Shown here: piece after piece, positions 3,001 through 23,371 of the stretch
How the letters are laid out: each line of letters starts with the position of its first letter
Numbering within the stretch: position 1 is the first letter of the stretch
Source: Jimgerdemannia flammicorona
Lineage: Eukaryota; Mucoromycota; Endogonomycetes; Endogonales; Endogonaceae
Length of the DNA stretch: 24,195 bases
Reading direction: 5' to 3'
Assembly: GCA_003990745.1 (NCBI GenBank)
Contig: RBNI01001129.1
Span: 1-24,195, forward strand
Notes under the pieces: model-generated
Told to the model about the DNA's origin: nothing
Database searches by the model: none
Seen by the model: only the letters and a program-made list of their open reading frames with translations
Made by a program: the position numbers and the translations under genes

Positions 3001-3729
3001 GGGTCCATCTCCACTCCCCCCAAACTGCCCCTGCCCTAACAGTCCCCATTGATCAGGCCATGGGCACCACTCTACCTCCAAAGTCTTCCAAACATCAGCA
3101 CCCCAACATTCAGCCATCAGAATCCAGTCAATCCTTATTCCTAAGCCATTTACCTAGTGTATGTAGATCCTGGTGTTGCCCCACCATGTTCTGCCCATAT
3201 CCCCTAAGGAGCCAAGATTCTCCACCTCCTCCCACACATCCAGACCACCACTTCTCCCACCTACATTCCTCTCTCCATCAGTTCGGTCTAGTTGCAGCTC
3301 CTGAACCATATTAAAATCACTACCCAGAACTTTGACTCCTTCCTCCAAGAAAGTACCATCCTCCAGCAGCCCCTTAATCTATGCAATCCTCTCATCCCTA
3401 ACTGCAGGGCAGTAGCAGGAGCTAACTCTCACTGATTCCCACCCTGGCTGATGCCTGTCTCCCCAGACCAAGCAGTCACTCCAGTTCCTGATTCCCTCCA
3501 AGTCTCCTCGACCCTTCTTTACCAGAATCACCACTTTGCCAAACCAAGCCATAGCCCTACCCCATTTCCTAGTCCACTCTACCTGATCATCCTTATCCTC
3601 ACACCATACATCCTGCAGTAAAAAGAGATCGGCCTCCAATCCCTTGAGCCAAGTAAAAATGTTCTTATGCCACCCAGAACCCCATAACCCATTCACATTT
3701 AGAGAGAAAATATTAGTTGTACTATTCAT
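47..3729 (-). pseudogene. LINE ORF2: AP-like endonuclease and reverse transcriptase, broken
   Basis: ORF2 starts at the ATG at 3727-3729. The endonuclease shows FSLNVNGLWG at the N-terminus, LFLLQDVW, GSDFNMV near 3304-3324 and RIDWIL near 3118-3135, the usual order of AP-endonuclease motifs. A frameshift lies between about 2875 and 2893. After it, the frame holds the RT: RPIMLLDMDRKL, LVFLDQEKAYDHVWW, GVLQGDPLSPILYALSLEPL and the catalytic FADDM at 1607-1621. Further on is a LINE-type C-terminal block (IRWDTLAESV, GGLGLVNFPKQLYCLQAWW) in the same frame at about 1231-950. Stops fall at 3379, 3154, 2648, 1517 and beyond; the last in-frame stop I followed is TAG at 47-49. The intact protein would nick target DNA and prime reverse transcription there. 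This copy cannot make it. Confidence 0.92.
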
Positions 3730-5707
3730 AGGAAATAATGTTATGTAATGACCTCATCCTCTACAACTCTGCATTCAACTCCTCCTGTGCTACATCTAAG
3801 TCATGTTCTGCAGCTAGTTCCTTTGCTTCAGCTTCCTGCACCTCCAACCCTCTCAGAAGTTCTGCCATCACCCCATCCTCTTTCTCCTCAAAGTCCTCTC
3901 AATACTCCAGACAGGCCTCCTGCCAGAGCAGCAAACCATGACACTCAGCCCAACAGTAGGCAGCCTACTCACCAGCAACAACTGCCAGCTCCACCTCTCT
4001 CACCTTATCAATCTTATATCTCTCCTCCTCTAGAAAAATTGCAAGAATTTCCACCTTCAGTGCCTCCACCACCCTATCTCCATGCAGAATCCTTTCCCAA
4101 TGCTCCTCAGGCATCACATATAGGTCCACTTCTCCCAACTCCTCAGCTATGAGGTTATCCATCACCTTACTTATCCACAGCAGGTTCTCCACCTCCTTCC
4201 CTCCAGGAGTCCCTGGCCACCCAGCATCCAGCATCATGGTATCTGCTCCTACACTGGCAGCCTCAACCCACTCCTCCTCTGGGACATCCACCAGCTCATC
4301 CTCACCAACTGCCACCACCTGGCCCCCTTTTGCCACATTGGGGACCCCAAAATGTACTTGCTGGGCCTGCATCAGCACATCCTTCACTGCCCCTCTCTTC
4401 ACCACCAGGCCCCTCCTGATAAGAGGGGGGGGAGTGGCATCTGACTCCTGCTCTCAGACTTTGAATGTCCCATCTGCATAGGGGTCCTTGCTCAGCATCT
4501 TCCCAGCCTCTTCTCTGTTTGCCTCCACCTCCTCTCCTCCTATACTAGTCCAGATGCTGTCTTTGATGCTCCCAGACACTGCAGCCCCATCCACCTTCTT
4601 CTCTGCCCCTCCTTTCATACTTGCCAACAGCTTCCTCTGCCTCATACATCCCTGGGCCCACTCCTACTGCTTCTTGTCAGTGTGGATATACTTTCCATAT
4701 ACAATCTCCAGGTGCATTGACTCCTCATAGAGCTTCCAGGTCTTTGCCCACTGCTCAACCATACCACTCAACTCCTCCAGTACTTCCAACAAGTCCTCCT
4801 CCTCCTCTTCACTCCCCTTCACCCTCAACACCTTACATACAAATACCCCCCACATCAATACTGAGGGCCAGTCACTTGCCTTCCCTGTAGCCTCCCTCCC
4901 TGCCAATCAAATTCTGACATCAACATCATCTGTCCTTATCACAGTCCCCTCCCACATCTGAAAGCTGATGTCCACCACATCACTATACTCTGCCATCACC
5001 TCCTCCACCCTCCTCCTAGTCTTAACCTTTGTCACCATAGGTACTCTCTTTACCAGCAACTACACCACCCTGGGGTTCCACCTAAGACAGTGCACCATAG
5101 GTACCACCACTTCCCCAACCACCACTCTAGTCTTCAGTACCTCATCCAGTAGGCCTGCCTCCTCAAAGCCCACCTCAACCCCCTCCAGCCCCTTCAGGAA
5201 CTTCACCAAGGCTGCCCCAGCCACCTGTTGTGAAACAAGCCACAGGACCATCCTTGCAGTCACCACCAAGCCCCAGAAGTACAAGGTAGCTATATACTCT
5301 GAAATCAACTTCTTGAGTAATGGTGCCACTACTAGCCCCATCACACCATCAGCCAGGTCCCCCTTCCACTTTGGGTCCATCTGCCCAGCTCCACCATTAG
5401 CAGTCACATCTGGATTTTTTTCCAGATTCTCTGTCATACCACTATGAGCAGTCCTGTCACTATCCCCAGTAGCCACCCCACCAGCCCTACCACCTACTGG
5501 CAGAGGTCCAGCTCCTCCAGTTCTTCCAGCTTCTTCAACCTTCTGCTTCCCCTTCTCTCTAGCCTGCCCACTCCAGGTTCTCATTGGCCAACTACCATTC
5601 CTCAGCATGTCTGCAAAGCTCCTCCCTGTCTGCCCTCCAGCTCTCCCACCAGTGCCACTTCTACTGCCTATACTGCCCTGCCCACTTGAGCCACCAAAAG
5701 ACCCCAT
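3722..5707 (-). pseudogene. LINE ORF1 (RNA-binding/Gag-like protein), broken by stops
   Basis: A single reading frame starts at the ATG at 5705-5707 and ends at the TAG at 3722-3724, about 661 codons. It is interrupted by in-frame stops at about 5060, 4907, 4664, 4454, 3965, 3900 and 3761. The N-terminus is Gly/Ser-rich (GGSSGQGS) and followed by GRSFADML, which resembles the SFADVL-type motif seen in many LINE ORF1 proteins. The C-terminal third is Glu/Leu-rich and looks like a coiled coil (VMAELLRGLEVQEAEAKEL). I see no CCHC knuckle. The known family role is binding the element RNA into a ribonucleoprotein. Several stops are TGA or TAG, consistent with CGA or CAG decay. The assignment rests on position upstream of ORF2 rather than on a recognised domain. 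Confidence 0.75.
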
Positions 5708-5790
5708 CTCCAGCCTATACTCTTGTCCAACATGCTGCTAGTTGAAAGCCCCAGGTCCACCCAACCTAGTATGTGTGTCAGCTTGCTTGC

Positions 5791-6352: not shown

Positions 6353-7049
6353 GGTCAGCTTGAGTTGTGATGCACTAGATACCCAAACATTGGCTTAGAG
6401 AGTGTGAGATACTTGGAGACTTTTGTTTGATAGTTGGGTCTCAACTGAGAGTAGTGAGGAGAGGGGTTGATGAATGAGATAGATGGAGAGACTTGAGAGA
6501 TAGATTAGTGGAGAGGATTAATAATGAGTAGCTTATGATTGGATAGACTTTAGCTATATAGATAGGATTGGCTGGATACTGGCTATTTGTTTTTGAGAAT
6601 AGAAGATGATGGAGTTTGGAGAAGTAGTTAGTAAGATAAGAAGAGTTGATATTAGATGTCTCAATGGGTTGGTGGCTGGGATTCGATCTACAAAAGAGCT
6701 GTCAGTACTACTTAGTAGAGAGGATCTGTAGGCAGAGTGAGGGGAGAGTTATAGTGGTAGATAGTAAGGTAGTCTTCAAGTATAAGAGTGTCAGGGGGGG
6801 TTCTCCTAGAGGGATTGAGTAGGGGGTGGAGTGGTGGGCTGGGGTACTATATTTATATTTAATAGACTGGTAATAAATAGTGAGGCCCAAGAGACTATAA
6901 TAAAAAAAAAAAAAAAAGATACTAGTAATGACTGGTTTTTCTATAGTAGTAGAGATTGATATTATATCAAATTTATTCAGTTTGACTATGGGTTCTTGTG
7001 TACTGAAAAGTTATATCAATTTTAAAATCTTCTCAGTCAAGCTCCTAAA
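6353..7049. other. Purine-rich unassigned DNA, possibly a retroposed transcript end
   Basis: The plus strand is purine-rich (many GAGAGG and GATAGA runs) and has no convincing open frame. At 6872-6877 there is AATAAA, followed about 25 nt later by an A-run (about 6901-6916) interrupted only by the T at 6901. That spacing is what the 3' end of a polyadenylated RNA looks like, so the block could be the tail of an unidentified plus-strand retrosequence. From 6917 to 7049 I see nothing. Confidence 0.35.
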
Positions 7050-8273
7050 TGTAATATACTAGCTCAATAGAGTCAAATTTTAAGGTTGGAGATTTAGTAG
7101 TTTAACATCAGCCCTTAGTTACTTTGTTAAAAAGTAATAAAATATTCTAAGATTTCTGGTATCTTTATTGGTATTTAGTAGTATAATAATTAAATCTGGA
7201 TATAACAGTTAATTTGTATTATTGAGATAGTTCTTAGATATAGTGATAATATTGTATTATAGTCTCTATATGGTATAATGGATTTTCTATATAAGGCAGT
7301 CTGGCAATTTAGCAGTTTTGATGGATGATCTCTGTATGGTGTGATGGATTTCCAAAGTATATAATTTCTGCATAACAATCTTGGTAAACTTCCTTATATA
7401 TTTTGATGAATAACTTGATTTGGTACAGGTTCTTCTAAATTGGCAGGCTTCTTGAATATTAACTTGAGTAACTCAGTTGGTGTAGATTCTTGGCAAAGTT
7501 ACATCAAGACTGGCTTCATTTGTATGGAGTTATGTTGATAAACTGGCTCCAATGTAAAGTTGTATTAAAAGACTAGCTTGTGATAAGATTTCTATAGTAG
7601 GCTTCTCTGAAAATTAACTTGAATGGCATGGATTCTTCCTGAATCAACAGACTTCTTAAATAGTGCAGATTCTTCTCTTTGCAAGGTTATATTAGAGACT
7701 GGATTCATTTGTATGAACTAAGTTCACTGTGAAGTTATATTGAATAGACTACCTTTATTGCAAAGAGACTTCAGGCTTATCTGGCAAGCAAACCAAAATA
7801 TAGCAGACTCTTCTTTATTTCAGAAAGCCAACTAGAGTAGAAAGGGAACTAAGCTCACAATCTCTTAGTAGTGGCTGTAGAGTGGTTATTTCCCCTAAGT
7901 ATTGCAATCTAATTTCTTTAGGATTAAGTGGTTTTTGGCAGGCATATCTCTTGAAGTACAGTAAGCAGATTTGTCTTTTGCTTTTTAGTTTCAATTTTGG
8001 ACTGAGGTTTATTCACTCTTATCTCTGGAATATTTTATACATTGTGATTGCTATCTAGTTACTATATAGCTAGTTATAATATGGTTATTTTAGATGGGTG
8101 TTCTGGTTCTGTATAGTGTTCAGACTCTATATACTATTTAGACTCTGAATGAAGTCCTAATTAGTAGTATCTAGTTATTTATACAGATTTGTTTAATAAA
8201 GCAGTCCTGAGCATCCACTATAATATGTAGTTATTTTATTATTCTGATGGTTTGATTCTCATTACTCATCACA
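7050..8273 (-). mobile_element. Solo LTR, family A, copy 1 (decayed)
   Basis: The left end is TGTAATATACTAGCTC and the right end is CTCATCACA, matching copies 2-4, with TG...CA termini. The length is 1224 bp against about 1430 bp for the fuller copies. Element sense is inferred as minus because, read that way, a TATA box (TATTTTATA at 8031-8039 on plus) lies just upstream of an AATAAA, as at a U3/R junction. A second TATA-like module is near 8170-8180. CpG is nearly absent. No clear target duplication is seen: the left flank is CTAAA and the right flank ATACT. The copy may have lost sequence at an edge or descend from a rearranged element. No internal retrotransposon genes adjoin it. Confidence 0.75.
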
Positions 8274-8775
8274 ATACTAATTTATTCTTGATAAAAATAT
8301 TGTAATGTATCTGGCTCAATAGAGGCAAATTACAAGATTGAGAGTTGATATAGTTTGGCTTAAGCCCCCAGTTACTTTGTTAAAAACAACAAAATGTTCT
8401 AAGATTCCTTATTGGTATTTTGTGATATAATAGTCAAAGCTGGATATCTGTGAGCAGTTTCCTTATTGAGATGGGTTCTTAGGTGTGAGTGGCTATTTAT
8501 ATAGCACAGATAGTCTAGTAATTTAGCAGTTTTCCTTATACAATTTCTACATGATGATCTCTATATAGTGTAATGATCTCCAAAAGTATGTGATTTCTGC
8601 ATGACAATCTTATATAGTACAATGATCTCTTATATAGCAAGGTGGATTCCTTATATATTGTGACAAACCAAAATGTATCACCCGAATTATATCTTAACCA
8701 GATGATGTGAATAATTAGGCAAGATGATACAAACATACAGCATAGTAACCAGCAACCATTGCTGCAGAAAAACTG

Positions 8776-8973
8776 TATAAATAGCCAGAGATACCAGAAA
8801 GGGTCTGTTTACCTATACAGACTCTGTACACCATACAGACTCTATACACTGTACAGGTCCTGTACACTACAGACTCTGTACACCTGCCATAAGTAGCAGA
8901 TCTATAGTTAGCCACATAGTAACCAGATAGCAACCAACTTGTATAAATTACCCCAGAGACAAGAGTGAATAAA
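8776..8973 (+). promoter_or_regulatory. Two TATA modules and polyadenylation signal in LTR copy 3
   Basis: TATAAATA at 8776-8783 and TATAAATT at 8942-8949 sit in similar contexts: each follows a run resembling AACCAGCAACC or TAGCAACCAACTTG and precedes CCAGAGA. AATAAA follows at 8968-8973. Copy 4 keeps the same pair on its minus strand (24028-24035 and 23895-23903, with AATAAA at 23872-23877), so the duplicated promoter module is a family trait. Confidence 0.55.
8815..8884. repeat. Short tandem array between the TATA modules of copy 3
   Basis: About four units related to ACAGACTCTGTACACC follow one another, one of them forming the near-perfect dyad TGTACAGGTCCTGTACA. The other copies have different or no repeats at the same place. 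Confidence 0.65.
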
Positions 8974-10916
8974 CCTCAGTCCGAAATTGAAGCAAAAGAC
9001 AAGTCTGTCTACCACACTTCAAGAGAAACTCTACAGCCACTGCTAGGAGATTGTGAGCTTATTTCCTCACTCCGGTCCACTTTCCGATACAAGAACGAGT
9101 CTGAAATTGAATCCAAAAGCAAAAGACAAGTCTGCCTACCATACTTCAAGAGGAACTCTACAGCCACTGTTAGGAGATTGTGAGCATTGATTCCCTTTTC
9201 TACTCCGGTCCATTTTCTGATACAAAGAATGAGTTCATTTTTGGTTCGCTTGCCAGATAAGCCTGAAGATTTGCCATCTAAGTTCAAGGAAGAACTTTGC
9301 TGCTGTTTCCAAGTCATTTGCCACATTCCCAGAGAGCTCTATTCTTGCCACAAGTCAGTCTTTCTGATGCAACTTCATAGTAGAGCCAGTCTAGCAATAC
9401 AACTCCACACAAATGAAGCCAGTCTTTGATGTAACTTTGCCAAGAGACCCTTTCCCAAAGAATGCCACCAGTTGTTTGTATTCCCAATTGAAGCCACCAA
9501 TTTATAAGAATCTGCACCATCCGAGTTAATTCCCAGTTAAGCCGCCATTATCAAGAAGTCCACCAATTCAGGAAGAATCCATGACACCTGAGTTATCTGA
9601 GCTATTGAATTACCTGCCTCTTGTGACATCCAAGTTATTCATCATTCCTAGTAATAAGAACCCATGCTGTACAATTCTCAGTAAGCCAAATCGAGTTATC
9701 TGCCAAATCCATATAAGAAGAACTGCTAAATTGCCAGACTGTCATGCACAAGGAGATTGTCATGCTATACAGAGATTATCGCACCAAGACTGTCACCCAG
9801 AAATCACATACTTTTGGAAATTACCTTGCTATACAAAATTGTACCATTTCCAGTTGACCCAAGAAGGAAGTCTATTCACATACAAATCACTGCTACACCC
9901 AGAGAACTGTCCAATAAGGAAACTACTTGCAGATATCCAGATTGACTATTATACCACTAAACACCAAAGACCTCAGGAAATATTAGAACATTTTGTTGCT
10001 TTTTGACAAAGTAACTGGGGGCTCAAGCTGAACTACATCAACCCCCAACCTTGTAATTTGCCTCCATTGAGCTGGCACATTACAATATATATGATGATCT
10101 AGTATATAGTATGCCTTATATGGATTTGGTGGATAATTTAATTTGGTAGATGACTTGATTTTGATGCAGATTCTTCTAAATTGGGCTCACTAGGAATAGA
10201 GAGTAGTGTAGATTCTTCTGAATCAGACTCACTGGAAATGGATGAATAACTTGGATAGTATGGATAACTCAGGTAACTTGAATATTATGGATTCTTTCTA
10301 AATTAGTGGGTTTTCTGAGAATAGTAGATAACTTGATATCAGATGATAAATTCTTGGCAAGTTATATCAAGATTGACTTTATTTGCATGGAGTTATATTA
10401 TAGACTGGCTCTACTACAAAGTTGTATCAGATAGACTAGCTTGGTGACAAGAATAGTAGACTTCTCTGGAAATGGCAGACATCTTCTTGAAAATGGTAGC
10501 TTATTCCTTAAGTGGTAGATTACTCAAATAGTGGTGAAGTTCTTTCTTGAACTTGGCAGATTTCTTGGATTCTTTGGGCTTATCTGACAAGCAAATCAAA
10601 AATTGACTTGTTCTTTATATTGGAAAGTAGACTGGAGTGGAAAAAGGGAGTCAATACTTATAATCTCCTAGTAGTGGCTTTAGAGCAGTCATTTCTCCTA
10701 AGTGTTGCAATCCTTTCTAGATCAAGTGGCCTTTGGCAGGCATATTCCTTAAAGTATAATAGGCAGACTTTTCTTTTGCTTTAAATTTCAGACTTTTTGG
10801 ACTGAGGTTTATTCACTCTTATCTCTGGAGTATTTTATACATTATGGTTGCTATCTGGTTGATATCTGGATAATTATAGATTTATCATCTCTGGTAATGT
10901 TTGGGTGTATCTATAG

Positions 10917-11024
10917 GACATGAGTATGTCTGCTGGACACAAGTGTGTCCTCTGGACACAGGTGTGTTCTCTGGACACAGGTGTGTCCTCTGAACACAGG
11001 TGTGTCCTCTGGACACAGGTGTGT

Positions 11025-11027
<3 letters not shown>
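10917..11027. repeat. Palindromic 19-bp minisatellite in LTR copy 2
   Basis: Five clear units of CTGGACACAGGTGTGTCCT or one-base variants run up to 11027, with a weaker unit before them. The array continues at 11457-11482 beyond the eS30 retrocopy. Each unit contains a 7-bp inverted repeat, GGACACA and TGTGTCC, around a 2-bp centre, so the array is a row of small dyads. Confidence 0.9.
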
Positions 11028-11072
<45 letters not shown>

Positions 11073-11596: not shown

Positions 11597-11772
11597 ATAT
11601 CAAGAGTCCATAAATAAAGAATCGTGACTTTTGATATTGGTCTGTAAAATATTCACTTGTATACTATCTCTTTAGATAAAATTTACAAAAAATGTATATT
11701 GTACTAATGCAACTACCCTGTCTAATGGAATGCCCTTTGATAAACTCCAATCTATCTTGCATATTGCTGTAC
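11597..11772. other. Host flank upstream of the split gene
   Basis: AT-rich sequence between LTR copy 2 and the candidate start codon at 11773. The frame of that ATG stays open upstream with other in-frame ATGs at 11707 and 11725, so the true start is uncertain. Otherwise I see nothing. Confidence 0.4.
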
Positions 11773-11802
11773 ATGTGTGACAATCATCTGTCATTTACGC
11801 TA
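11773..11802 (+). pseudogene. Candidate host gene, first part of exon 1, cut by the gypsy insertion
   Basis: ATG at 11773 opens a frame reading MCDNHLSFT up to the target duplication CGCTA (11798-11802). If the gypsy element and one target copy are removed, the frame continues without a stop into 22457-22548 and then, across a candidate intron, into 22651-22783. As the DNA stands, the frame enters the LTR and meets TAG within a few codons. I do not recognise the protein. The start is tentative: the -3 base is T, and in-frame ATGs occur upstream. Confidence 0.4.
11798..11802. repeat. Gypsy target-site duplication, left copy (CGCTA)
   Basis: Directly abuts TGTAAG of the 3' LTR. It pairs with CGCCA at 22455-22459, differing by one C/T transition. 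Confidence 0.8.
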
Positions 11803-13873
11803 TGTAAGAGGGTTGCTTTTTAGGGTAACTGTTATGTAGTTCTGGAAGAGTTTTCTAGAAGTTCCAGATATTCTGGAAGACCATTTTCTTATGGTCAAGA
11901 TCAATTTCATATGGAGTACATCCTCTATGCTTATTGATTTCAAGATTGGGTTGATGTCTCAACCAAAGTCCTTCTTCAGACTAGTTCTGGATGTTCAGGA
12001 TTTTCTATATTTCAGGAAGTTCAAGAAACTAAGACCGGCTTAGTTGAATTGGCATATCGCTGCAGACAATACCCAATTAGGAAATTTCGTGATGGGGTTA
12101 GGAGTGGGACCAAATGGGGAGCAGATTTACTTAAGAGTGGTTTGGGGGTTATTAAATAGGTTTATTTGCTATTCATGATATTGCTATACTAGGAGTAGTT
12201 GTGTGAAGGGATATTGTGGGGAAGTGCTCAGGAGTTGTGTTCAGATTGTTCAGGTCTATTCAAGTCCAAGATTCTGAGGTCTGGTGGAGGAGGTATTTAT
12301 GCTAGTGAGGGGCTATCTGGACTATACTAGATATGGATGTAGAACTAAGTGCTTTGCTGAGTCGGAATACAGTCATGTAGTACAATGGTAATCTGACATG
12401 TCAAGAGATCATCTGCCTGCTGAGTCAGTTCACAGTTATATCATACAAAGCTAATCTAACTATACTATGACTGCTAAGCTATTTATAGGTTTAGGCACTG
12501 TCTGGATAGTCTTCAATGACATCACCATTAATGACATCATCTCTGATGAAGTAGTCATCTAGGAAGAGTAGTTCACGGATTACTTCTTCTTGTTGGCTGA
12601 GGTAATAATACATTGGAACTTCATCTCTGTCCCACAGGATAGCATCGTCTGTCTCATATGCTGGATAAGGTGTTGGTGGGTGAAGGAGGGGTGCATTGTC
12701 TTCACTTTCATCAGATTCACTGTCTGCATATCTTCTATAAGTTACAGCACTATAAGTCGCAGGATTGTAGTAAGCTGGCAGCTGTGGTTCATGTTGCTCA
12801 TACTCAGGTAGTGGAGTTGTTGGTTCAGTCTCGAGAGTTGTCTGGAGATACAGGTTGTGTTCTCTGGTCTCTTCATTGTAGTTGAAGTAATCGGGTATGA
12901 ATGTGGGTTGATATTCATGCCAGTGGTCATTGTTCAAATAAGTCTCATAGGTGGTTATGAACTGTTGTAAGTTCATTGACAGGCTTGGTGGTGTGATCAG
13001 GGTTGGCAGAGATCCTTGGCTTGAGGTCATATCGGCATCAGAGGGATCATTGTCTTCTGCTTCATCTTTATCGAAGTTGATTATATCATAGATATCCTTC
13101 ATGGTGTATCCAACTTGGGGCATTTGCAAGATATGATCATTGGGGTGCGGGAAGGTTCTGTCTGTAGTTTCAACATACTCGAGATACTTGTGGTTGAGTT
13201 CTTGTATCATGTCGTCGATTTGGCCATAGGACAGAGTAGCAACCATTTCACTAGTAGTAACTCGGAGGTGGGGAATAAAGGTGCTGTACTTGTAGAAGAG
13301 TTCTCGGTGTTTGCGGGTGATGAGCTTCTGGTGTTGAGACATCTGGGTAATGTCTATATCATAGTGGTGTTCGATCATGTCTTCCAGGAGGCGGCCGATC
13401 TGGTAGTAGCTTGAGATTTTTCTGATCCGGTGGGCCTCGTTAAGCATGTTCAGGGCATTCCATCAGGCTTCCACAAAGTAGAGGGGTGCTAGGCTATGGA
13501 TATTCATGAGGGGTAGAGGGGGTGTGGCTCGGTTGACAATGGTATTCCAAATGTCAGCATGGATGTGGTTGTAGATCTCGGTGGTCATATTTGTATGTTT
13601 GGAAGTTGTGGTTGTTATTTGTTTTGGTTCTGCTTCGATGCATCTTGGGGCTCGGTATATATGCATTTGTTCTTGATTGGTAAGATTCCGTTTATATGAA
13701 TCTTGTGTTCTGTGACTTTGTATTGACTCAGCTTTGTACACTGTGACTTCTGTTTGACTCAGCTTCATGATCACACAGGTGATTTCCAGATTTGTTAGAG
13801 GTCTTGTGTGATTTCAGTAGCTTGTTAAGAGGGTGACATGTGATTTCTGTGGCTTGGAGGTTGTGTGCTTACA
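11803..13873 (-). repeat. Gypsy 3' LTR
   Basis: This is the downstream LTR in element sense, 2071 bp. It matches 20384-22454 throughout with the same length. U3 holds the 12491-13768 open frame. The TATA box of the other LTR is changed here to CATAAATA (plus-strand TATTTATG at 12294-12301), while AATAAA (plus TTTATT at 12161-12166) is kept. Confidence 0.96.
12491..13768 (-). pseudogene. U3-encoded open reading frame in the 3' LTR, about 425 codons, unknown function
   Basis: A long frame lies wholly inside U3. The first ATG is at 13766-13768, or the downstream ATG at 13666 (MHIY). It runs to TAA at 12491-12493 with a single in-frame stop, TGA at 13463-13465; below this stop 318 codons from 13447 are uninterrupted. 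The N-terminal half looks alpha-helical (WNALNMLNEAH, SSYYQIGRLLEDMIEHHYD). The C-terminal half is acidic and rich in Tyr and Pro (ADSESDESEDNAPLL, MYYYLSQQEEVIRELLFLDD). I see no signal peptide, membrane segment, zinc motif or known enzyme motif. At the TGA the other LTR has CAA, so the ancestor was probably CGA (Arg). The frame would be present in genomic RNA through the 3' U3, as with the LTR-encoded gene of mouse mammary tumour virus. No function is assigned. Confidence 0.75.
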
Positions 13874-13887
13874 ACTCTCCCCTTCTT
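13874..13887 (-). promoter_or_regulatory. Polypurine tract
   Basis: In element sense AAGAAGGGGAGAGT directly precedes TGTAAG of the 3' LTR, the expected primer site for plus-strand DNA. Confidence 0.85.
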
Positions 13888-14298
13888 AGCTTTCGACGTC
13901 CTCGTCGGGGCCTTCTAATTTTGTTCTAGTGTTGTTACACCATTTGGGAGGTCAAAAGTCTGGTAAAGTCCATTTTTTCAGAAAGTGGCATGCTTATAGT
14001 ACAGTTGCCTAATGTGTTGGATTCACATGTTAAAGGGTCATGTGTTCAATGCCATACACTGAAAGTGATTCTGACATCATTCACTGCTGGAGAATTTCCT
14101 CTAAGAAATCTTCTTAAATATCTATGCCTCATTTCCCACCAGTGGTACAGGGAGAATAGGCTGGCTTTCAGTTTTGCCATTTTTCTAGAGGATTGGTATT
14201 CTTGACTTGCTGAGTTCTTGATTAGGTTCATGATAATTATAATGTTCAGGAGGGTATAATATATAGTATGAACTGATAGGTGCAGGAGTGTTCAGATT
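13888..14298 (-). other. Gypsy 3' internal non-coding segment
   Basis: Between the Pol stop and the polypurine tract there are about 410 bp with only a 61-codon frame of no recognised character (14231-14046, ending ITFSVWH). A plus-strand stretch near 13995-14065 loosely resembles a tRNA but does not fold. I see no further gene. Confidence 0.5.
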
Positions 14299-14500
14299 TT
14301 AGTTGTTCAAGGAATCGTATTCCTGAACTAAGTCAGTAGCATTCTGGAGATTGGTCTTGGGTTCCTATGTTGCATCATGGATTGGATAACCTTTCCATTT
14401 AATGAGATACTCAGGGTGGTTTTTGTGGTCACATTTGTTGATGATTTGTTCAACTTTGTATTCTTCCTGGTCATTAATAATGATAGGTGCAGGTGGTTTT
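14299..14500 (-). pseudogene. pol: C-terminal chromodomain of integrase
   Basis: After HPVFNVQHLKQY comes EEYKVEQIINKC and HPEYLIKWKGYPIHDAT, the aromatic-cage part of a chromodomain, then a TAG where Trp (ATWEP) is expected, then NATDLVQEYDS and the end of the frame at TAA 14299-14301. Chromodomains direct chromoviruses to heterochromatin by binding methylated histone H3. This one is intact except for the Trp-to-stop change. Confidence 0.93.
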
Positions 14501-14601
14501 GTAGTTTGGTTCGGGAATAGTTCATCATCATTGTCATTGTATTGCTTGAGATGTTGGACATTAAAGACTGGGTGAATCTTAATGGTGTCTGGTAGCACCA
14601 A

Positions 14602-15662
14602 TTTGTAAGAGGTCAGAGAGACTTGTGAAATGACTTCAAATGGTCCAACGAACTTGCTGTTCAGCTTTGTAGACAGTCTGTGCTTGAGGTTGTCAACTTG
14701 GTATCCTCAGATGTCTAATAGAACTTTTTCTTCAATATTGAAGGTTTCTTCTCAGCAATGTTGATTAACATACTGTGACTGTTGTTCTTGAGCTTGCAAT
14801 AAATTCTCAATTGCAATCTGACTTAGATTATGCATTTGGAGTAAGAATTCTTCAACAGCTTTGACTGTAGAGGGTTCTTCAGTGGTTTGGATGAGTGTTA
14901 GAGGAGTGTTTGGGTTTTGTCCAGTGTTGGTGAAGAATGGGATCATTCCAAGAGAGGCTTGCTTGCTGTTGTTATAGGCAAACTTGACTGCAGTGAGGTG
15001 TTCATGCCAATCATCTTGTCTGTAGGAGACATAGTTTCTTAGTATTTGTTCCAGAGTTTGGTTCATTTTTCAGTTTGGCCATCAGTTTCGGGGTGAAAGA
15101 CTGTAGATAGTGCAAGTTTCATTCCAAGGTGTGCATGGAGGGCTTTCCAAAAATGGCTGGTGAATTTCGGGTCTCGGTCACTAACAATGATCTTAGGAAG
15201 ACCATGATAGCGGAAGATATTGTCAAACAAGAGTATAGCTATGTCTGGTGCTGTTGCAGTGGTGGTAGTTGGTATAAAGTGAGCTTGTTTGCTGAGATAG
15301 TCCACAAAGACAACAATTGCATCTTTCCCATTCTTGGTTCGAGGTTGTACAATAAAGTCCACAGAGACTTGTTTCCAATTAGCAGATGGTACTGGGGTGG
15401 AGTAGACTGGGTTTTGCTAGTGTTGAGGACTTATTACATTGGCAGGCATCACAGGAAGTAATGTAGGTCTTTAGCTGGTCTGCCATCCGGGGCCAATAGA
15501 AGTTTTGAGAGATAACTTCATAGCATTTATTAAATCCTAAGTTTCCAGCTGTAGGGGCATCATGACATTCGAATAGGATAGTCCTTCAGAGGTCTCGGTT
15601 GTTTGGGACATACAATCTGTCCTTGTAGTAGATAGCATTATCCTTGAGTTGGATTGATTATA
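14602..15662 (-). pseudogene. pol: Integrase: HHCC, DDE core and GPY/F module
   Basis: The zinc-binding part is readable only in a shifted frame between two indels, near 15655 and 15410 (FYWPRMADQL, SCDACQCNK). The catalytic core follows in the main frame: VDFIVQPRTKNG with the first Asp near 15360, IVSDRDPKFTSHFW with the second, and HPETDGQTEK with the Glu. A 1-base loss in an A-run at about 15066-15070 moves the rest to another frame, which continues MNQTLEQILRNYVSYRQDDW and reaches the GPY/F module KFVGPFEVIS near 14634-14657. Stops in HCxEETF and DIxGYQ are TGA. It would insert the cDNA into chromatin. Confidence 0.93.
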
Positions 15663-15799
15663 CTGTGTATGCTTGTCAGCATCATCACTATTCAGGATTT
15701 CTTGGAGTACTTGAGCTTCTTTATCATCAATACATGCTGTGATAATTTGTTCCATGATCGAGTTTGTAACCAGGGTGAGAGTTTGGATGACTTCTTCAA

Positions 15800-16196
15800 T
15801 AGGTGGTCTGGAGATTACATCGGCAACAATGTTTTCCTTGCCAGGGTGGTACTGGATTTCGTAGTCAAAGTTGGTGAGGACTTTCATCCATCTGGCTTGC
15901 TTTCGAGAAAGGGTAGCCTGGGTCTTGATGTTGACTAATGACTTATGGTCAGTCAATATAGTGAAGTGTGCTCCTTCTAGGTATGGTCACCATTTGATCA
16001 GAGTGTCTACGATGGCTAACATTTTCTTCTCGTGAGTTGCGTAGTTGATTTCAGCATCATTGAACTTGCGGGAGTGATAGGCCACAGGGTGTCCTTCTTG
16101 TATGAGTACTGCTCCAAGGGCTAGGTCAGAGGCATCAGTAGTAACTTCATATGATAGGGCAGGATTTGCCACTTGAAGTACTGGAGTGGTTATCAA
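15800..16196 (-). pseudogene. pol: RNase H domain
   Basis: YEVTTDASDLALGAVLIQ (about 16160-16105) contains the first catalytic Asp. The glutamate block is in INYATHEKKMLAIVDTL, and ILTDHKSLVN (about 15960-15935) carries the next Asp. HPGKENIVADVISR near 15840-15800 is the end motif usual in gypsy RNase H. A TGA breaks the frame between IKW and PYLEGA. It would degrade RNA in hybrids during cDNA synthesis. Confidence 0.93.
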
Positions 16197-17399
16197 AGTA
16201 TCCTTCAGTGCTTGGAAGGCAGTATCTTGTTCGGGTCCCCAATTTACAAGATTGTTGAATTTCTTTTCTTATTTTGTGGTCCAGGGCTGTTCTTCTTTCT
16301 TGCTATGCTTGGTCATTTGGATAAGGGCAGTGGTGATTTTGGTGAAGTTGGTGACAAATCATCTATAATAGTTTGCTAATCCCAGGAATGACTGGAGGTC
16401 TTTCAGCTTCTTGGGTCTGGGCCAATCTTTGATTGTGGAGATTTTGCTAGGGCCCACTTTGATTCCATTTGGTGTAACAATGTGTCCAAGGAATTGGATT
16501 TCTTTCAGGAGAAATTCATACTTGCTGAGTTTTGCGAAGAGTCAGTTTTCTTGGAGTTTCAGTAGTACTAGCTCCAGGTGTTCAAGATGTTCCTCCAGGG
16601 TTTTGCTGAAAACTAGAATGTCATCAATATAGACAACAACGAATTTGTCCAGGTATGGATGCAGAATGGTATTCATCAGTATCTGAAAGGTTGCAGGAGC
16701 ATTAGTTAAGCCAAAGAGCATAACTAGGAATTCGAAATGTCCATAGTGGGTTTGGAAGGCTGTCTTGTAGATGTCTTCTTCTTTTATGGCAATTTGCCAG
16801 TAACCATTTCATAGGTCAAAAGAGCTCATGAATTGTGGGTTCATAAGTCTATCGAATATTTCATCGATTCTGGGTAGTGGGCAATAGTTCTTGATGGTCT
16901 GTTCATTGAGGTCGCAGTAATCAATATACATTCGCAGGACTCCTCCTTTCTTTACAACAAAGAGGACTGGTGTACCATAAGGTGATACACTGGGTCTGAT
17001 GAATCCTTGTTCCAGGAGTTCATCAATTTCTTTCTTGAGTACATCGATTTCTCTTGGGGACATGTGGTAGATTGACTTGAAGGCTGGCTTGGCATCTGGA
17101 ATAGTCTTGATGGCATGGTCCACTGCTCATTTGGGAGTTAGGCCTTTTGGGAGTTTCTTTGGGAATATGTCTCAGAATTTCTGGAGTAGTGGTCTGACAT
17201 GGCTGTCAACTTTGAAAAAGTCTTCTTCAGAGTTCTCGGGTTCTCCTTTGGATGGATGGATGGAGATAGCAAAGAGAGGGCATTTCTTGGCCAATTTCTT
17301 GAGTTGTAGCTTGTTGGTGTGGGTGATCTTTGGTCCAGAGTCACTAGTGTTGAGTGTGTCCTTTTTGCCTTGCAGTTTGAAGTTGTGGCATCCTTTCTT
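16197..17399 (-). pseudogene. pol: Reverse transcriptase domain with upstream linker
   Basis: After a linker containing INWVNHSLTI, the RT reads DELLEQGFIRPSVSPYGTPV, then MYIDYCDLNEQTIKN (usually RxxIDYRxLN), [11 protein letters not shown], and the catalytic [13 protein letters not shown] with YIDD at 16620-16631, followed by FLGHIVTPNGI and the thumb and connection. Stops include TGA at 16809-16811 within FDLxNGYWQ (Arg in relatives), one in QENxLFAK, one in NYYRxFV, and TAA in TKxEKKF. Most stand at Arg positions. Apart from the stops, alignment to gypsy RTs looks collinear. Confidence 0.95.
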
Positions 17400-17702
17400 G
17401 ATGGTCAGAGAATGGTTTACCCAATTGATCATAGGGTTCTCTTGTTTTAACCATATAGTTCCAAGGATAATTTCATTGTCAGGGAGTGGTACAATTTGAA
17501 GGGTAATATGTACTCGATAGTCACCAATTCAGAAGGGTAGATTGCGGACTTCCTTGATAATGACATGTGAGGTTCCATCAGCTGTAGCAACTGCTTGAGT
17601 TTGTTGTACCAGGGAGGTGAAGACCTTGAGTCTGTTGGCTGTTTCTTTGTTGATGAAGTTGCCTGAGGCACCACTGTCTATCATAATCTTGACAGGTGCT
17701 CA
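17400..17702 (-). pseudogene. pol: Retropepsin-type aspartic protease domain
   Basis: In the frame following the dUTPase, VKIMIDSGASGNFIN carries the catalytic D-S-G at 17670-17678. About 80 codons later, EIILGTIWL matches the flap/C-terminal ILGxxWL element of gypsy proteases. TGA codons at 17700-17702 and 17529-17531 interrupt it; in related proteins an Arg would fit both places (FxIGDYRV context). It would cleave Gag-Pol. Confidence 0.88.
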
Positions 17703-17939
17703 ATTGACAAAAGCTTTAAGTATAAGTAGTTTGTCTGATCTAATGGTGATGATTTTGGTTGTAGGAGTTTTCCTTCTGTTGGTTCTTCTTTGAGCCAGTT
17801 CGTTTACACAAGAGAAGCAATCATCAATCATTCGGGAAGAGTACATTCCAATGCCATGGGGGCATCGGCCACTTGGTACATATCTATCTTCGATTTTCTT
17901 GTAGAATTGTTCTTCTTTATTTATGGTAGGTTGGACTGG

Positions 17940-18330
17940 GGCCTTGTTTGATGAACCAAATCCTTTAGATCCTCGGATGGTGGGCAGTAGTTCAGGGACT
18001 TCCTTGACTGTCAGGTTTGACTCAATTTTTTCAAATAGGATCTGGGCAATACAGAATCCAATGGGAATCTTGAAGGGTGTCCAACTGTGGTTTTGGATAA
18101 GGACAATAATTTCGCCTGTGTAATCTTCGTCAATGACTCCTCCTTCTACTGAGAGTCCTTTCAATGCTAGGCTACTGTGACAGCATATTCTTCCAACATA
18201 TCCTTCAGGAATTTGGATACTGATTCCTGTGTAGACTTACTTGACTTCTTGGTTAGAGACTGTAGCTTCTTTGACTGCATACAGGTCATATCCAGCTGCT
18301 TTTTGACTTCTTTTGGTTGGGGCCTTAGCA
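17940..18330 (-). pseudogene. dUTPase domain between Gag and protease
   Basis: All five trimeric dUTPase motifs occur in order in the Gag-Pol frame. Motif I is AAGYDLYA (18276-18299). Motif II is CHSSLALKGL, where PRSGLALK-like sequence is usual. Motif III is EGGVIDEDYTGEI (around 18130) with the catalytic Asp. Motif IV is IPIGFCIAQI, where GDRIAQ is usual. Motif V is RGSKGFGSSN (17950-17978). The enzyme hydrolyses dUTP to dUMP and keeps uracil out of cDNA. Decay shows as TAA at 18237-18239 and as His and Cys at two family Arg positions, both explained by CpG transitions. It is fused in frame downstream of the zinc knuckle and upstream of the protease. Related dUTPase-bearing Ty3/gypsy elements have been described in basidiomycetes. 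Confidence 0.92.
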
Positions 18331-18399
18331 GTTTGTCTTAATTTGACAAAGTCTAGTGTTCTGGTGGTCAGATTGTTGAGGTGGTGCAGAGTGGTAACA

Positions 18400-20383
18400 G
18401 TTGCTCATGTTGCTGTTTGGGGTTTTCGGTTAGAGTAGGCACTGGCCATGTGTCCTGTCTTTTGGCAATAGAAGTATGCTCCACTTCTTCTAAGTTCATT
18501 CCTTTTGCCTTCAGTGAGTTTCTTGAAAGTACTCGGCTGGGTGGATTCATGATTTCTGGGTGTCCACGAAGTGGATGATGAGGGAGCTCGGGATGCTTCA
18601 TGCTTGGGTTCTTCTTTCTTGGTCCAAGTCTTTTCCTTGTTGTTGAATTGTCTTTGGGGCAGAATGGGTCCAGCTGTTAGGATCCATTTGACCATAGTCT
18701 TGATTCTTGCCAGGCACCATTGTTGGTGGTCACAACCAACTGGGCATCCTTGTTCTCAGATTTTTCTAGTAAGCCATTCAGACAGGGTATTGAATAAATG
18801 ATCTGCTCTTGTACCATTTCATACTTCATCATTGGCAATATATCCTAGGCCAACAGTGTTCAGGAGTGACTTGAGTTTTATACAGAAGGTTTCGAATTCC
18901 TCCTTACCATATACATCAAATTTGAGGTTGCAGAGTTTTACTTGGGATTCAGTGATCATGGTTTTGCTGCGATATTGAGCAATCATGAGTTGTTTAAGCC
19001 CAGGGGCTGCAGGATGGGCTCTATATCCTGGGGCATTATTTGCTGTATTCTGAGCAACTACTGCAGGTCAGGTGTCCCATATGAGGGGCTTTTCAGGAAG
19101 GGTTCGCCACCATTCTTCGGCAGGTCCTTGGAAGAATATAACAACTTGGCGAACATAGGCTGTAGTGGTAGCAAAGAGTTGTTCCAGAGTGTGGTCTTGA
19201 TTATTTGTCAGAATGCAGTCAACAACTTGCTCATTGGTCTATTGGTTGGCTTCAAAGTTGGTGTCAACTACATTAATGAAGCTTTGGACTTCTTATACAG
19301 TACTATTGAAGGTAGGTAGACTCAGATTTTTTGTAGGTCGGTTCTGTTCAGCTAAGGCAGTAATGGTTGCTACCATTATGGCTACCTGGGCTGTAAGGTC
19401 TAGAATCTGTTGGTTTGTTATGTTGTTTACTGGAGGTAGTTGGACTGCTAGTTGTGGTGTTACTGGTACTATTTGAGGTACTGGTGCAGAGTGTGATGGG
19501 GTTCTTTGGGTCTGTGTAAGTTGCTAGAGTAATAGTTGTGGGTCTGGAGTAAGAACTTAATAGATAGCTATCTGTTGCTGTGTAGGTGTGTTTTGTCCTG
19601 ATGGAGGTATGTCTCCTTCAGTAGTGTATCTAGGATCAAATTCACTGAGATACTCCTCCTCCTCTTCGGTTTGGTCCCCATGTACTTGGGTTTGCTCAGT
19701 GTCAAAATAGACAGAATCAGTTGTATATCTGATTTCAGATGGACTTAATTCAAAGTCAAGTTCTGGTTTGGTATTGGTTTCGGATTCAGGTAGGGTTGTA
19801 GCAGGGCCTGCTTCAGGTTTGGGATCAGGTAGTTGATGAAGGGTTTCTCTTGCTTCTTTCTTAAGAATATGGTAGGCCTTGCTGTTCTGGAATTGATAGT
19901 ATAATGCGGTCTGGGTCCTGGTGTAGTGAAAGTTGGTAGAGTTGAGCCACTTGGCTACAGAGGCTTGGGCTTCATGAGGAACTAAGGCTAGAAAGACTGC
20001 TGCTGGTTGTCCAAGGTCACTTGGATTTGTAGAGCTGACAAAACTCTTATTGAGAAGAGTAAAGAAGACTTCTATAAGACCTTCTTCATCCTGACTTGCT
20101 GGGTGTAGTACAAGGAGTTCAGTGAATAGGGTTTCACCTATTTGCTAGTTTAATCGGAGTACTTCTTTCTTTGAATGAAGTTTGTCCCACTTATTGCAGG
20201 TGTAAAGGTCAAATTGTCCTTGTACATCAGGTTCAATTCTCTCCAGATTGTCAGATGGTTCAGAATAAATTTCAGTTCAGAGGTTGGGCTTTATACCAAC
20301 TTATAGGAATTCACAGAAGAGTTTGTAGCAGGGTGAGGAAGCATCTTGAAGTGGAATTGGATTGTAAATCGCTGCTATCAAGT
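18400..20383 (-). pseudogene. gag: Gypsy leader and Gag region with decayed CCHC knuckle
   Basis: The frame shared with Pol is readable from just inside the 5' LTR to about 18400, interrupted by stops. Recognisable parts are an acidic, Pro/Thr-rich N-terminal half, a capsid-like block with FFQGPAEEWWRTLPEKP near 19085-19140, a segment LCNLKFDVYGKEEFETFCIK, and a zinc knuckle at 18430-18480 reading YFYCQKTGHMASAYSN. The expected CX2CX4HX4C has lost its first and last Cys to Tyr, each a G-to-A change. Gag would form the particle and package RNA. No ATG is present near the start in this frame; ATA near 20289 may be a decayed start. The tRNA primer site is not recognised after the LTR. Confidence 0.8.
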
Positions 20384-20741
20384 TGTAAGAGGGTTGCTTT
20401 TTAGGGTAACCATTATGTAGTTCTGGAAGAGTTTTCTGGAAGTTCTGGATATTCTGGAAGACCGTTTTCTTATGGTCAAGATCAATTTCATATGGAGTAT
20501 GTCCTCTACGCTTATTGATTTCAAGATCGGGTTGATGTCTCAACCAAAGTCCTTCTTCGGACTAGTTCTGGATGTTCAAGATTTTCTATATTTCAGGAAG
20601 TTCAAGAAACTAAGACTGGCTTAGTTGAATTGGCATATCACTGCAGACAATACCCAATTAGGAAATTTCGTGACGGGATTAGGAGTGGGACCTAACAGAG
20701 AGCGGATTTACTTAAGAGTGGTTTGGGGGTTATTAAATAGG

Positions 20742-20881
20742 TTTATTTGCTATTTATGATATTGCTATACTAGGAGTAGTTGTGTAAAGGGATATTGTGG
20801 GGAAGTGCTCAGGAGTTGTGTTCAGATTGTTCAGGTTTGTTCAAGTCCAAGATTCTGAGGTCTGGGGAGGGGGTATTTATA
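20742..20881 (-). promoter_or_regulatory. Core promoter and polyadenylation signal of the gypsy 5' LTR
   Basis: TATAAATA at 20874-20881 and AATAAA at 20742-20747 are 130 nt apart in element sense, the expected arrangement around R. A second TATA-like sequence (21059-21068) lies about 185 nt upstream, just past the U3 frame's stop. Confidence 0.6.
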
Positions 20882-21070
20882 CTAGTGAGGGGCTATCTGG
20901 ACTATGCTAGATATGGATGTAGCACTAAGTACTTTGCTGAGTCAGAATGCAGTTATATAGTACAATGGTAATCTGACATGTCAAGAGATTGTCTGTCTGC
21001 TGAGTCAGTTTACAGTTATGTCATATAAAGCTAATCTAATTATACTATGACTGCTAAGCTATTTATAGGT

Positions 21071-22348
21071 TTAGGCACTGTCTGGATAGTCTTTGATGAC
21101 ATCACCATTGATGACATCATCTCTGATGAAGTAGTCATCTAGGAAGAGTGGTTTGCGGATTACTTCTCCTTATTGGCTGAGGTAATAATACATTGGAACT
21201 TCATCTCCATCCCACAGGATAGCATCGTCTGTCTCATATGCTGGATAAGGTGTTGGTGGGCAAAGGAGGGGTACATTGTCTTCACTTTCATCAGATTCGC
21301 TATCTGCATACCTTCTATAGGTTACAGTACTATGAGTCATGGGATTATAGTAAGCTGGCAGCTATGGTTCATGTTGCTCATACTCAGGTGGTGGAGTTGT
21401 TGGTTTAGTCTCGAGAGTTGTCTGGAGGTACAGGTTGTGTTCTCTAGTCTCTTCATTGTAGTTGAAGTAATCAAGTGTAAATGTAAGTTGATATTCATGC
21501 CAGTGGTCATTGTCCCAATAAGTCTCGTAGGTAGTTATGAACTGTTGTAAGTTCATTAGCAGGCTTGGTGGTATGATCAGGGTTGGCAGAGATCCTTGGC
21601 TTGAGGTCATATCAGCATTAGAGGGATTATTATCTTCTGCTTCGTCTTTATTGAAGTTGATTATATCATAGATGTCCTTCATAGCATATCCAACTTGGGG
21701 CATTTACAGAATGTGATCATCAGGGTGCAGGAAGGTTCTGTCTATGGTTTCAACATACTCGAGATACTTATGGTTGAGTTCTTGTATCATGTTGTCGATT
21801 TGGCCATAGGATAGGGTAGCAACCATTTCGCTGATAGTAACTTAGAGGTGGGGAATAAAGGTGCTGTACTTGTAGAAGAGTTCTCGGTGTTTGTGGGTGA
21901 TGAGCTTCTGGTGTTGAGACATCTGGATAATGTCTGTATCATAGTGGTGTTCGACCATGTCTTTCAGGAGGCGGCTGATCTGGTAGTAGCTTGAAATTTG
22001 TCTGATCCAGTGGGCCTCATTAAGCATGTTCAGGGCATTCCATTGGGCTTCCACAAAGTAGAGGGGTGCTAGGCTATGGATATTCATGAGGGGCAGAGGG
22101 GGTGTGGCTTGGTTGATAATGGCATTCCAAATATCAGTGCAGATGCGGTTGTAGATCTCAGTGGTCATGTTTGTGTGTTTGGAAGTTGTGGTTGTTATTT
22201 GTTTTGGTTCTGCTTCGATATGTCTTGAGGCTTGGTATATATGCATTTGTTCTTAATTGGTAAGATTCCGTTTGTATGAATCTTGTGTTCTGTGACTTCG
22301 TATTGACTCAGCTTTGTGCGCTGTGACTTCTGTTTGACTCAGCTTCAT
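21071..22348 (-). pseudogene. Same U3 frame in the 5' LTR, more disrupted
   Basis: This is the counterpart of the 12491-13768 frame. Two open blocks remain (22246 to 21842 and about 21703 to 21362). Stops include TAA near 22254, TAA at about 21842 (the other LTR has CGA), and others around 21704 and 21362. Where the 3' LTR has its TGA, this copy reads CAA, so the two copies were broken at different sites. That shows the frame was open in their common ancestor for most of its length. Confidence 0.7.
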
Positions 22349-22454
22349 GATTGCACAGGTGATTTCCAGATTTGTTCAGAGGTCTTGTGCAATTTCAGTG
22401 GCTTGTTAAGAGGGTGACGTGTAATTTCTGTGGCTTGGAGGTTGTGCGCTTACA

Positions 22455-22459
22455 CGCCA
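22455..22459. repeat. Gypsy target-site duplication, right copy (CGCCA)
   Basis: Directly follows CTTACA of the 5' LTR. It keeps C where the left copy has T. Confidence 0.8.
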
Positions 22460-22783
22460 TCTGCAAAGGGTGGCAAATTAGGAAAGGAGAGCCACAAGTT
22501 GAAAGACCAGATAATTGAGACGGCTGAGGGGGTCGAGGCGATTAAGGGGTAAGTGTGCAATATATATATATTAAAAAAAAAAAAAAAAACTTAAGTAGCT
22601 CGGCGGTGAGCGCCTATTACATATTTATTCATCCATACCCACTCACACAGATTATGTGAGATGGTCTTCCCAGCGAGCTACATTGGCGCCCTCGACGGCA
22701 CGGTGTGCGCAGCCGCCAGTGATGGCGGCGGAGCCAGTTACGGTGGCGATAGGTGCGGTGGCGGTGGATGCGGCGGAATGTGA
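22457..22783 (+). pseudogene. Candidate host gene, rest of exon 1, intron and exon 2
   Basis: From the second target copy the frame reads PSAKGGKLGKESHKLKD and on to EAIKG, a Lys-rich, well-composed stretch. It ends at a donor GTAAGT (GT at 22549-22550). A candidate intron of 102 bp ends with CACTCACACAG at 22650. Splicing keeps the phase: exon 2 (22651-22783) reads EMVFPASYIGALDG and finishes in a Gly/Cys-rich tail (GGGGCGGM) before TGA at 22781-22783. AATAAA follows within 15 nt. The whole would code about 83 residues. The intron contains a 17-nt A-run and no obvious perfect branch site. CpG is abundant here, unlike the transposons. No function is proposed, and the exon model is inference. 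Confidence 0.42.
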
Positions 22784-23062
22784 TGTGGAATTAATAAAAA
22801 AAATCCACAACACTTCCTTCTCATCAATTTTATTATGATAGCATGCAGAATGAATTTAGTGTAGCATACGCTTTATTTATATTATTAAGTGTATTTGCTT
22901 CATCGACTGATAGGTATCGGAACCGATTTGCGAAAAGTGGAGAGTATGACGAAAATGTGAAACTCACTGCTCGGATCTCGCCTTGAAAGCGAAATAATCA
23001 TTATTTTGGAATAGCGAAAATAAAATGTTTATATTCAGTGACGTTTGACATTTCTATATATT
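22784..23062. other. Host DNA downstream of the candidate gene
   Basis: An AATAAA-containing run follows the stop codon, bracketed by TGTGGA and TCCACA (a 6-bp inverted repeat). The rest has a moderate CpG level, unlike the transposons, and no reading frame of note. It ends in TATATATT, the target of LTR copy 4. Confidence 0.5.
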
Positions 23063-23317
23063 TTAACGTGCCGGCTCAATAGAGGCAAATTTCAAGGTTG
23101 GGGGTGCTATGTAGTTTGGCTTGAGCCCCCAGTTATTTTGTCAAAAAGCAACAAAATGTTCTATAATTCTGGTATCCTTGTTGGTGTTTAGCAGTATAAT
23201 AGTCAAATCTGGATACAACGGTCGATTTCCTTATTGAGACGGGTTCTTGGGTGTGTGCGGCGATTTGTGTGTAGCGCGAGCGGTTTCCTTATGCGATTTC
23301 TGCGTGGCGATCTTCGG

Positions 23318-23371
23318 GTAGCGCGACTATCTCTGTGTAGCGCGACGATCTCTGTGTAGCGCGACGATCTT
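23318..23371. repeat. Tandem repeat, about 20 bp, three copies, in LTR copy 4
   Basis: GTAGCGCGACGATCTCTGT recurs with one early variant (GACTATC). The matching place in copies 1-3 is degenerate. Confidence 0.75.

Follow-up and report, generated by a model that had tools for sequence, protein, structure and literature searches.

The long terminal repeats (LTRs) of a Ty3/gypsy retrotransposon from the fungus Jimgerdemannia flammicorona (Mucoromycota, Endogonales) almost certainly contain a real protein-coding gene, located entirely within U3. We analyzed a 24,195-nucleotide stretch of DNA (contig RBNI01001129.1 of the GenBank assembly GCA_003990745.1; hereafter, the window), the minus strand of which carries one such element, with both LTRs present and an internal region broken by stop codons. 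In the copies sampled from the genome, the U3 open reading frame (ORF) is under purifying selection as a protein, about as strict as that acting on the reverse transcriptase (RT) of the same family. Overall, it appears probable that this ORF is an LTR-borne accessory protein gene, perhaps with its own promoter, the product of which might be a regulator acting in trans.

The reading frame in the two LTRs

In the 3' LTR, the ORF occupies positions 12491..13588 of the minus strand and consists of 365 codons and a stop (ATG at 13588, stop at 12493-12491), with a single internal stop, the TGA at codon 42. The ORF of the 5' LTR (21071..22168, minus strand) is of equal length and contains four internal stops. 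The ATG lies 286 bases into the LTR (in the 3' copy), and both the start and the stop codons are within U3. A preliminary description of the window, made from the sequence alone, had reported a long frame contained in U3 of both LTRs and outside Gag-Pol, interrupted by one TGA in the 3' LTR and broken elsewhere in the 5' LTR; these claims were confirmed, with the minus-strand coordinates 13588-12491 and 22168-21071. The length that it gave, about 425 codons from an upstream ATG at 13768 that is in frame in the 3' LTR copy, holds in part: the 365 codons starting at 13588 are coding, whereas the first 60 or so are not. The coding status of these upstream codons was rejected on phase, indels and frame shift. 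Transversion columns at LTR positions 115-285 are distributed 5/6/7 by phase, that is, without codon-phase bias; of the 23 distinct indels at positions 60-285, 22 have lengths not divisible by three; and an insertion of 2 nucleotides relative to the window copy, found in 44 of the 51 copies described below, shifts the upstream frame.

Copies of the frame in the genome

The retrotransposon family is abundant in the genome searched (134.8 Mb, 7754 contigs). A DNA search with the ORF produced at least 41 matches (40 of the 2977 first-look candidates were scored), and a protein search, in which ranking by score favors open copies, produced at least 124. Among these 124 listed protein matches, 46, including that of the window itself, are stop-free over the 323 residues queried, and 22 of the 46 lie within an open frame of at least 373 amino acids. 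Sixty loci were cut out, of which 58 span the ORF (L032 and L059, where the matches begin inside the ORF, were dropped); removal of seven duplicates left 51 distinct copies, 30 DNA-ranked and 21 protein-ranked, all from the top of ranked lists drawn from a larger family. The copies were compared as they stand rather than against a rebuilt consensus.

The ATG is kept in all 51 copies, and the ORF is exactly 1098 nucleotides long in 49, the other two having one extra base at the stop codon. Six copies are fully open from ATG to stop, all of them protein-ranked, in support of the earlier proposal that the ancestral frame was open. The preliminary description had specified beforehand that other copies lacking the open frame, or substitutions lacking codon-position bias, would speak against a gene; the frame is retained as described here, and the bias is present, about as strong as in the RT of the element.

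By their flanks, the 51 copies include 21 5' LTRs, 10 3' LTRs (marked by the GAGAGT end of the polypurine tract), 10 solo-like LTRs and 10 that were not assignable. Among the solo-like copies, the target duplication matches at 5/5 positions in seven, 4/5 in two and 3/5 in one; L053 is a solo LTR with a perfect 5-bp (5/5) target duplication and an open ORF. In L030, a solo LTR is inserted in the ORF of an older, heavily decayed LTR of the same family (616-1214 and 3276-4093 of the locus, 69-70% identical), which indicates that the family was active at different times. The start of the LTR (positions 1-50) occurs in two forms, with and without a duplicated segment of about 32 bases, which is present in the window at 22372-22437.

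Selection on the frame

Most differences between the copies are transitions of the C-to-T type, with 11.1 variant letters per site at CpG, 3.3 at CpA, 2.5 at CpC and 1.1 at CpT. This decay, strongest at CpG and then at CpA, suggests methylation-linked mutation or a process resembling repeat-induced point mutation (RIP). The two LTRs of the window differ by 149 transitions and only 5 transversions. Because C-to-T decay makes transitions dominant, transversions were used as the cleaner test. Variable columns were counted by codon position (1/2/3), and the nonsynonymous to synonymous ratio (N/S) was calculated relative to expectation.

Across the 51 copies, the transversion columns of the ORF are distributed 16/12/45 (p 6.9e-7), with an N/S of 0.15. 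Given the bias of ranked-list sampling, the test was repeated on the 30 DNA-ranked copies alone, with a similar outcome (10/9/25, p 0.0012, N/S 0.17). The ratio for transitions is 0.48 (0.54 in the DNA-ranked copies), and in the ORF half from position 831, the third base of a codon, the true-frame ratio is 0.11. When the sense frame is shifted, the ratios become 1.72 and 2.38 for transversions and 1.17 and 1.74 for transitions; those of the three antisense frames are 2.33, 2.09 and 0.38. In the downstream non-coding part of the LTR (1384-2071), the ratios are 1.01, 1.67 and 0.73 for transversions and 1.00, 0.85 and 1.05 for transitions, and in the short upstream stretch of 18 columns, they are scattered (0.82, 6.69, 0.35), with even phases. 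As a positive control, the RT of the window and of the first 20 of the 39 other listed matches was analyzed in the same way, yielding 6/4/16 transversion columns, an N/S of 0.18 and a transition ratio of 0.49; 20 of these 21 RT copies contain at least one stop within about 260 codons. With ratios of 0.15 and 0.18, respectively, the U3 ORF is kept about as strictly as RT.

The 1098 bp of the ORF contain one distinct indel site, compared with 23 in the 226 bp upstream and 40 in the 567 bp downstream. Since the copies were found through the ORF, a 671-base non-coding query was run by the same search as a control (excluding the two window copies and one partial match per side reduced 41 rows to 38). 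A net length change was detected in 20 of the 38 matches to the non-coding query, seven of these by one shared 10-nucleotide step, versus none of the 38 obtained with the ORF.

The U3 protein and its only detected relative

The six open copies encode a protein of 365 amino acids and 43 kDa, with an isoelectric point of 4.3-4.4. Residues 146-365 (220 residues, in L033) carry a net charge of -42 and include 30 aromatic residues and 25 prolines. The maximal 19-residue hydropathy is 0.62 (L033), so no membrane anchor is seen. For the N-terminal 108 residues, four helices are predicted with low confidence (predicted local distance difference test score, pLDDT, 53.8); in line with the earlier remark that the protein resembles nothing known, comparison of this predicted fold with PDB yielded nothing below E 0.001 (best E 0.46, not used). 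The Pfam search of the protein detected no family, and the sequence search of PDB, no match. Scans with two short peptide patterns gave 119 pattern matches in viral contigs and 47 in prokaryote genomes, none of which was confirmed as a relative.

The sole relative found among 5.8 billion proteins, with a single-copy query and, identically, with a seven-row alignment, is an ENA protein of 247 amino acids encoded on a 998-base contig (denoted P0001). It is 67% identical to the U3 protein (167 of 250 columns), with two gaps of 2 residues, and is aligned to the C-terminus. The best match of P0001 in the genome searched is only 70% identical, so P0001 comes from another family or species. In simulations of neutral drift of the ORF to 67% identity, 4, 4 and 7 of 300 runs were stop-free under three transition biases, a weak argument given that P0001 was found as an ORF.

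Origin of the protein from the N region of the element's Gag was considered and rejected (BLASTP E 0.20, hhalign probability 0.1%). Each of the six open copies contains two [L/P]PxY motifs; the idea that these bind WW domains is weakened by the lack of the motif in P0001 and by the occurrence of PPxY twice in only 3 of the 6.

Signals around the frame and proposed mode of action

A TATATA motif, the candidate promoter of the ORF, is located 73 nucleotides before the ATG (13656..13661, minus strand). This motif is found within 110 nucleotides upstream of the ATG in 49 of the 51 copies, at a distance of 72-79 nucleotides in 48; in the eight copies inspected, a CA-rich leader comes after it. Position -3 of the ATG is A in all 51 copies (AAC in 42, AAT in 8, AGC in 1), and the ATG of the ORF is the first after TATATA in 22 of 49. 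Downstream of the ORF, ATAAATA (12294..12300, minus strand; 46 of 46 scorable copies) is a candidate TATA box of the genomic RNA, and AATAAA (12161..12166, minus strand; 43 of 44 scorable copies) is a candidate poly(A) signal in R. Conservation of these three motifs is weak evidence because motifs consisting of A and T only are spared by C-to-T decay. With the candidate genomic TATA box and poly(A) signal both downstream of the ORF, a single copy of the ORF would be present in the genomic RNA, at the 3' end.

The arrangement of these signals is compatible with a scheme in which the U3 TATA would direct an mRNA across the ORF, ending at the poly(A) signal in R, and the second TATA would direct the genomic RNA. 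Each LTR, solo LTRs included, would then constitute a small gene cassette, and the U3 protein might act in trans, most likely on LTR transcription, with the copies feeding a shared pool; this last step is the least certain one. That the ORF has its own U3 promoter is close to an even call. That the protein is a regulator can be suggested tentatively, on account of its acidic, aromatic tail. In the most extended form of the scheme, which is possible although we would not bet on it, the LTR is a complete gene, with its own promoter, selected ORF and terminator, and solo LTRs persist as dispersed protein genes feeding or repressing elements in trans. If the LTR is a complete gene, each retrotransposition would yield two gene copies per insertion.

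Weighing the alternatives

Several observations go against an LTR-borne gene for a trans regulator. The sample comes from the top of ranked lists, and its 21 protein-ranked copies favor open frames; among the 30 DNA-ranked copies, none is fully open (L028 is open, but its stop is lost). One antisense frame also shows a low ratio (0.38), as expected given that it shares its third positions with the sense frame. The downstream non-coding LTR has an uneven distribution of transversions over phases (19/43/38), yet gives no low N/S. With regard to expression, another ATG lies between TATATA and that of the ORF in 27 of 49 copies, including two of the six open ones. As for the product, the assignment as a regulator derives from composition, no DNA-binding domain was recognized in the U3 protein by Pfam, and no reliable fold was obtained (a 323-residue stretch modelled with P0001 had a pLDDT of 32.5 and was unusable). 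Finally, P0001 is known as a protein only.

That the frame is open by chance in a long U3 is barely conceivable: 45 of the 51 copies, both window copies among them, are not open from ATG to stop, but the RT copies of the family are similarly broken, and codon-phase bias, depletion of indels and the existence of P0001 all contradict a chance frame, as does, weakly by itself, the rarity of stop-free runs in the neutral simulation. Capture of a host gene or gene fragment, carried as neutral cargo that the element could dispense with, is very improbable. The location of the protein outside Gag-Pol speaks for it, as does a possible tolerance of U3 for inserts; nevertheless, neutral cargo would drift, whereas the ratio observed is close to that of RT. 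The finding of P0001 as the sole relative among 5.8 billion proteins also disfavors a host origin, although a diverged single-copy host homolog could escape the best-scoring genome lists.

The remaining alternatives accept the coding gene and differ in how it is expressed or what it does. Expression from the 3' LTR only, as the last cistron of the genomic RNA or from a spliced form, as with MMTV (mouse mammary tumor virus) sag or env/ORF3, would imply no U3 promoter and silent solo LTRs; we regard this as somewhat unlikely. It fits with a genomic RNA initiated at the downstream TATA, in which the ORF would occur once, close to the 3' end, with the additional ATG that follows TATATA in many copies, and with the extra ORFs known beside gag and pol in LTR elements (PMC5408684). 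The nearly constant spacing of TATATA and the CA-rich leader favor a U3 promoter instead, but are compatible with 3'-LTR-only expression as well. On function, the main competitor of a transcription regulator is a particle-side accessory protein, namely, a Gag partner or an assembly or release factor, which we consider unlikely. The Pro/Tyr-rich tail with its paired [L/P]PxY motifs, a shape known from Gag late domains, and the low-confidence helices of the N-terminal part point in this direction, as does the acidic, Tyr-rich appearance (by eye) of the end of the stop-free N region of the element's Gag. However, P0001 lacks the motif, and the U3 protein shows no similarity to that same Gag region in the comparisons given above. 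A trans regulator encoded by an LTR-borne gene remains the reading that we prefer.

Structure of the element and the rest of the window

Self-BLAST aligns the two LTRs (22454-20384 and 13873-11803) over 2072 columns with 92.5% identity. The 3' LTR (11803..13873, minus strand; TGTAAG...CTTACA) was delimited by self-BLAST, by sequence and by the ends and flanks of the other copies, and is bordered on its outer side by the target duplication TAGCG; the 5' LTR (20384..22454, minus strand), delimited by self-BLAST and sequence, is bordered by TGGCG, identical to the other side at four of five bases. The polypurine tract (13875..13887, minus strand), recognized by sequence, adjoins the 3' LTR on its upstream side.

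All internal features are on the minus strand as well. The interrupted Gag region (18405..20144) ends close to a CCHC-like knuckle identified by eye, and its pieces 19559-20144, 19068-19238 and 18405-18755 had no match in Pfam. It is followed by a dUTPase in the stop-free stretch between Gag and protease (17700..18236; Pfam dUTPase 2.4e-23, profile positions 34-128 of 129), the N-terminal end of which, judged by eye, apparently falls in the stop-free stretch immediately before it, and by an aspartic protease (17529..17699; gag-asp_proteas 1.8e-7). The stop-interrupted RT and RNase H region (15537..17126) matches RVT_1 (5.6e-20, 16542-16808), RT_RNaseH_2 (2.4e-27, 15987-16268) and RT_RNaseH (3.4e-8, 15537-15986); piece 16809-17126, searched alone, had no Pfam match. 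The zinc-binding and core domains of the integrase (15063..15585; Integrase_H2C2 6.8e-18, rve 6.9e-9) precede its C-terminal SH3-like domain and a chromodomain (14365..14706; SH3_Tf2-1 2.4e-15, Chromo 8e-8). The order of domains is thus Gag, dUTPase, protease, RT, RNase H, integrase, chromodomain. With RT and RNase H preceding the integrase, a chromodomain at the integrase C-terminus, two LTRs, a polypurine tract and a short target duplication (TGGCG/TAGCG in the window), the element is a Ty3/gypsy chromovirus carrying a dUTPase. An open stretch of 81 codons between the chromodomain and the polypurine tract (14046-14291, minus strand) had no Pfam match, and Rfam detected nothing over 11700-22600.

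Elsewhere in the window, a decayed non-LTR retrotransposon occupies 1517-5737 of the minus strand (RVT_1 E 4.9e-21 on 1517-2602), a stretch that differs from the remainder of the window in its GC content of about 50% and its strong GC skew. Several diverged repeats, AT-rich and present in both orientations, at 7000-10900 and 23050-23970 are probably remnants of other elements, and five copies of a 19-base tandem repeat, followed by 43 T, are found at 10933-11069. Outside the window, the sole 5.8S rDNA match over the cut-off, L081 (G000:C1485), looks, on inspection by eye, decayed by C-to-T changes in the 5.8S and small-subunit parts, but its large-subunit part does not.

Comparison with known systems

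Accessory genes reaching into U3 from the 3' end of the genome are known in lentiviruses (nef) and foamy viruses (tas and bet). Their start lies outside the LTR, which they overlap partially, whereas the U3 gene described here has both its start and its stop in U3. With regard to transactivators of the Tas/Tax kind, the observation made on the U3 protein is its acidic, aromatic C-terminal half, and an action on the element's own LTR promoter is hypothetical. The sag frame of MMTV also lies in U3. The MMTV superantigen is read from an ORF on the 3' LTR (PMC3038982), a layout to which that of the U3 gene can be likened. This parallel, drawn in the preliminary description, holds for location and nothing beyond it: PMC3038982 describes Sag as a type II membrane protein, whereas the maximal hydropathy of the U3 protein indicates no such anchor, and the host and the class of element are different.

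Among LTR elements, a dUTPase is known from basidiomycetes and Tuber (PMC2864245), including the gypsy PosPlaTy3 families of Postia placenta and Tmt1 of Tuber melanosporum, and from rotifers (PMC5408684). In PosPlaTy3-3, the dUTPase is at the amino-terminus of Pol, as in the window element (PMC2864245), and the resemblance to PosPlaTy3-3 lies in this position only; the passages of that article dealing with PosPlaTy3 and Tmt1 mention no LTR-encoded protein. The crapaud element of Podospora anserina, also a fungal chromodomain element, similarly varies in U3, occurs in many solo copies and is decayed by RIP (PMC10787394), but its LTRs are 339-443 bp, with a diverged U3 of less than 200 bp, and the ORFs described in the text available are Gag and Pol, with none in U3. 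Extra ORFs are known in LTR elements of rotifers (PMC5408684) and fungi (PMC2864245). Like the U3 gene, the ORF3 of bdelloid rotifer elements are family-specific additions to gag and pol, and most of the elements concerned carry a dUTPase; however, their products are env-like or enzymatic, and the portions of PMC5408684 that describe them mention no location in the LTR. The literature searched, mainly open-access and in part available as excerpts, yielded no precedent for a protein encoded wholly inside a retrotransposon LTR.

Implications

LTRs are regarded as non-coding sequence, the divergence of which serves as a neutral clock for dating insertions. Here, 1098 of the 2071 LTR bases are a selected gene, so that annotation tools would miss the gene, and comparisons of LTR subfamilies are not neutral. 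Rather than the scars for which they are usually taken, solo LTRs could be genes that are still expressed. If the U3 protein indeed acts on the LTR, the family would offer a testable system of trans regulation among retrotransposon copies.
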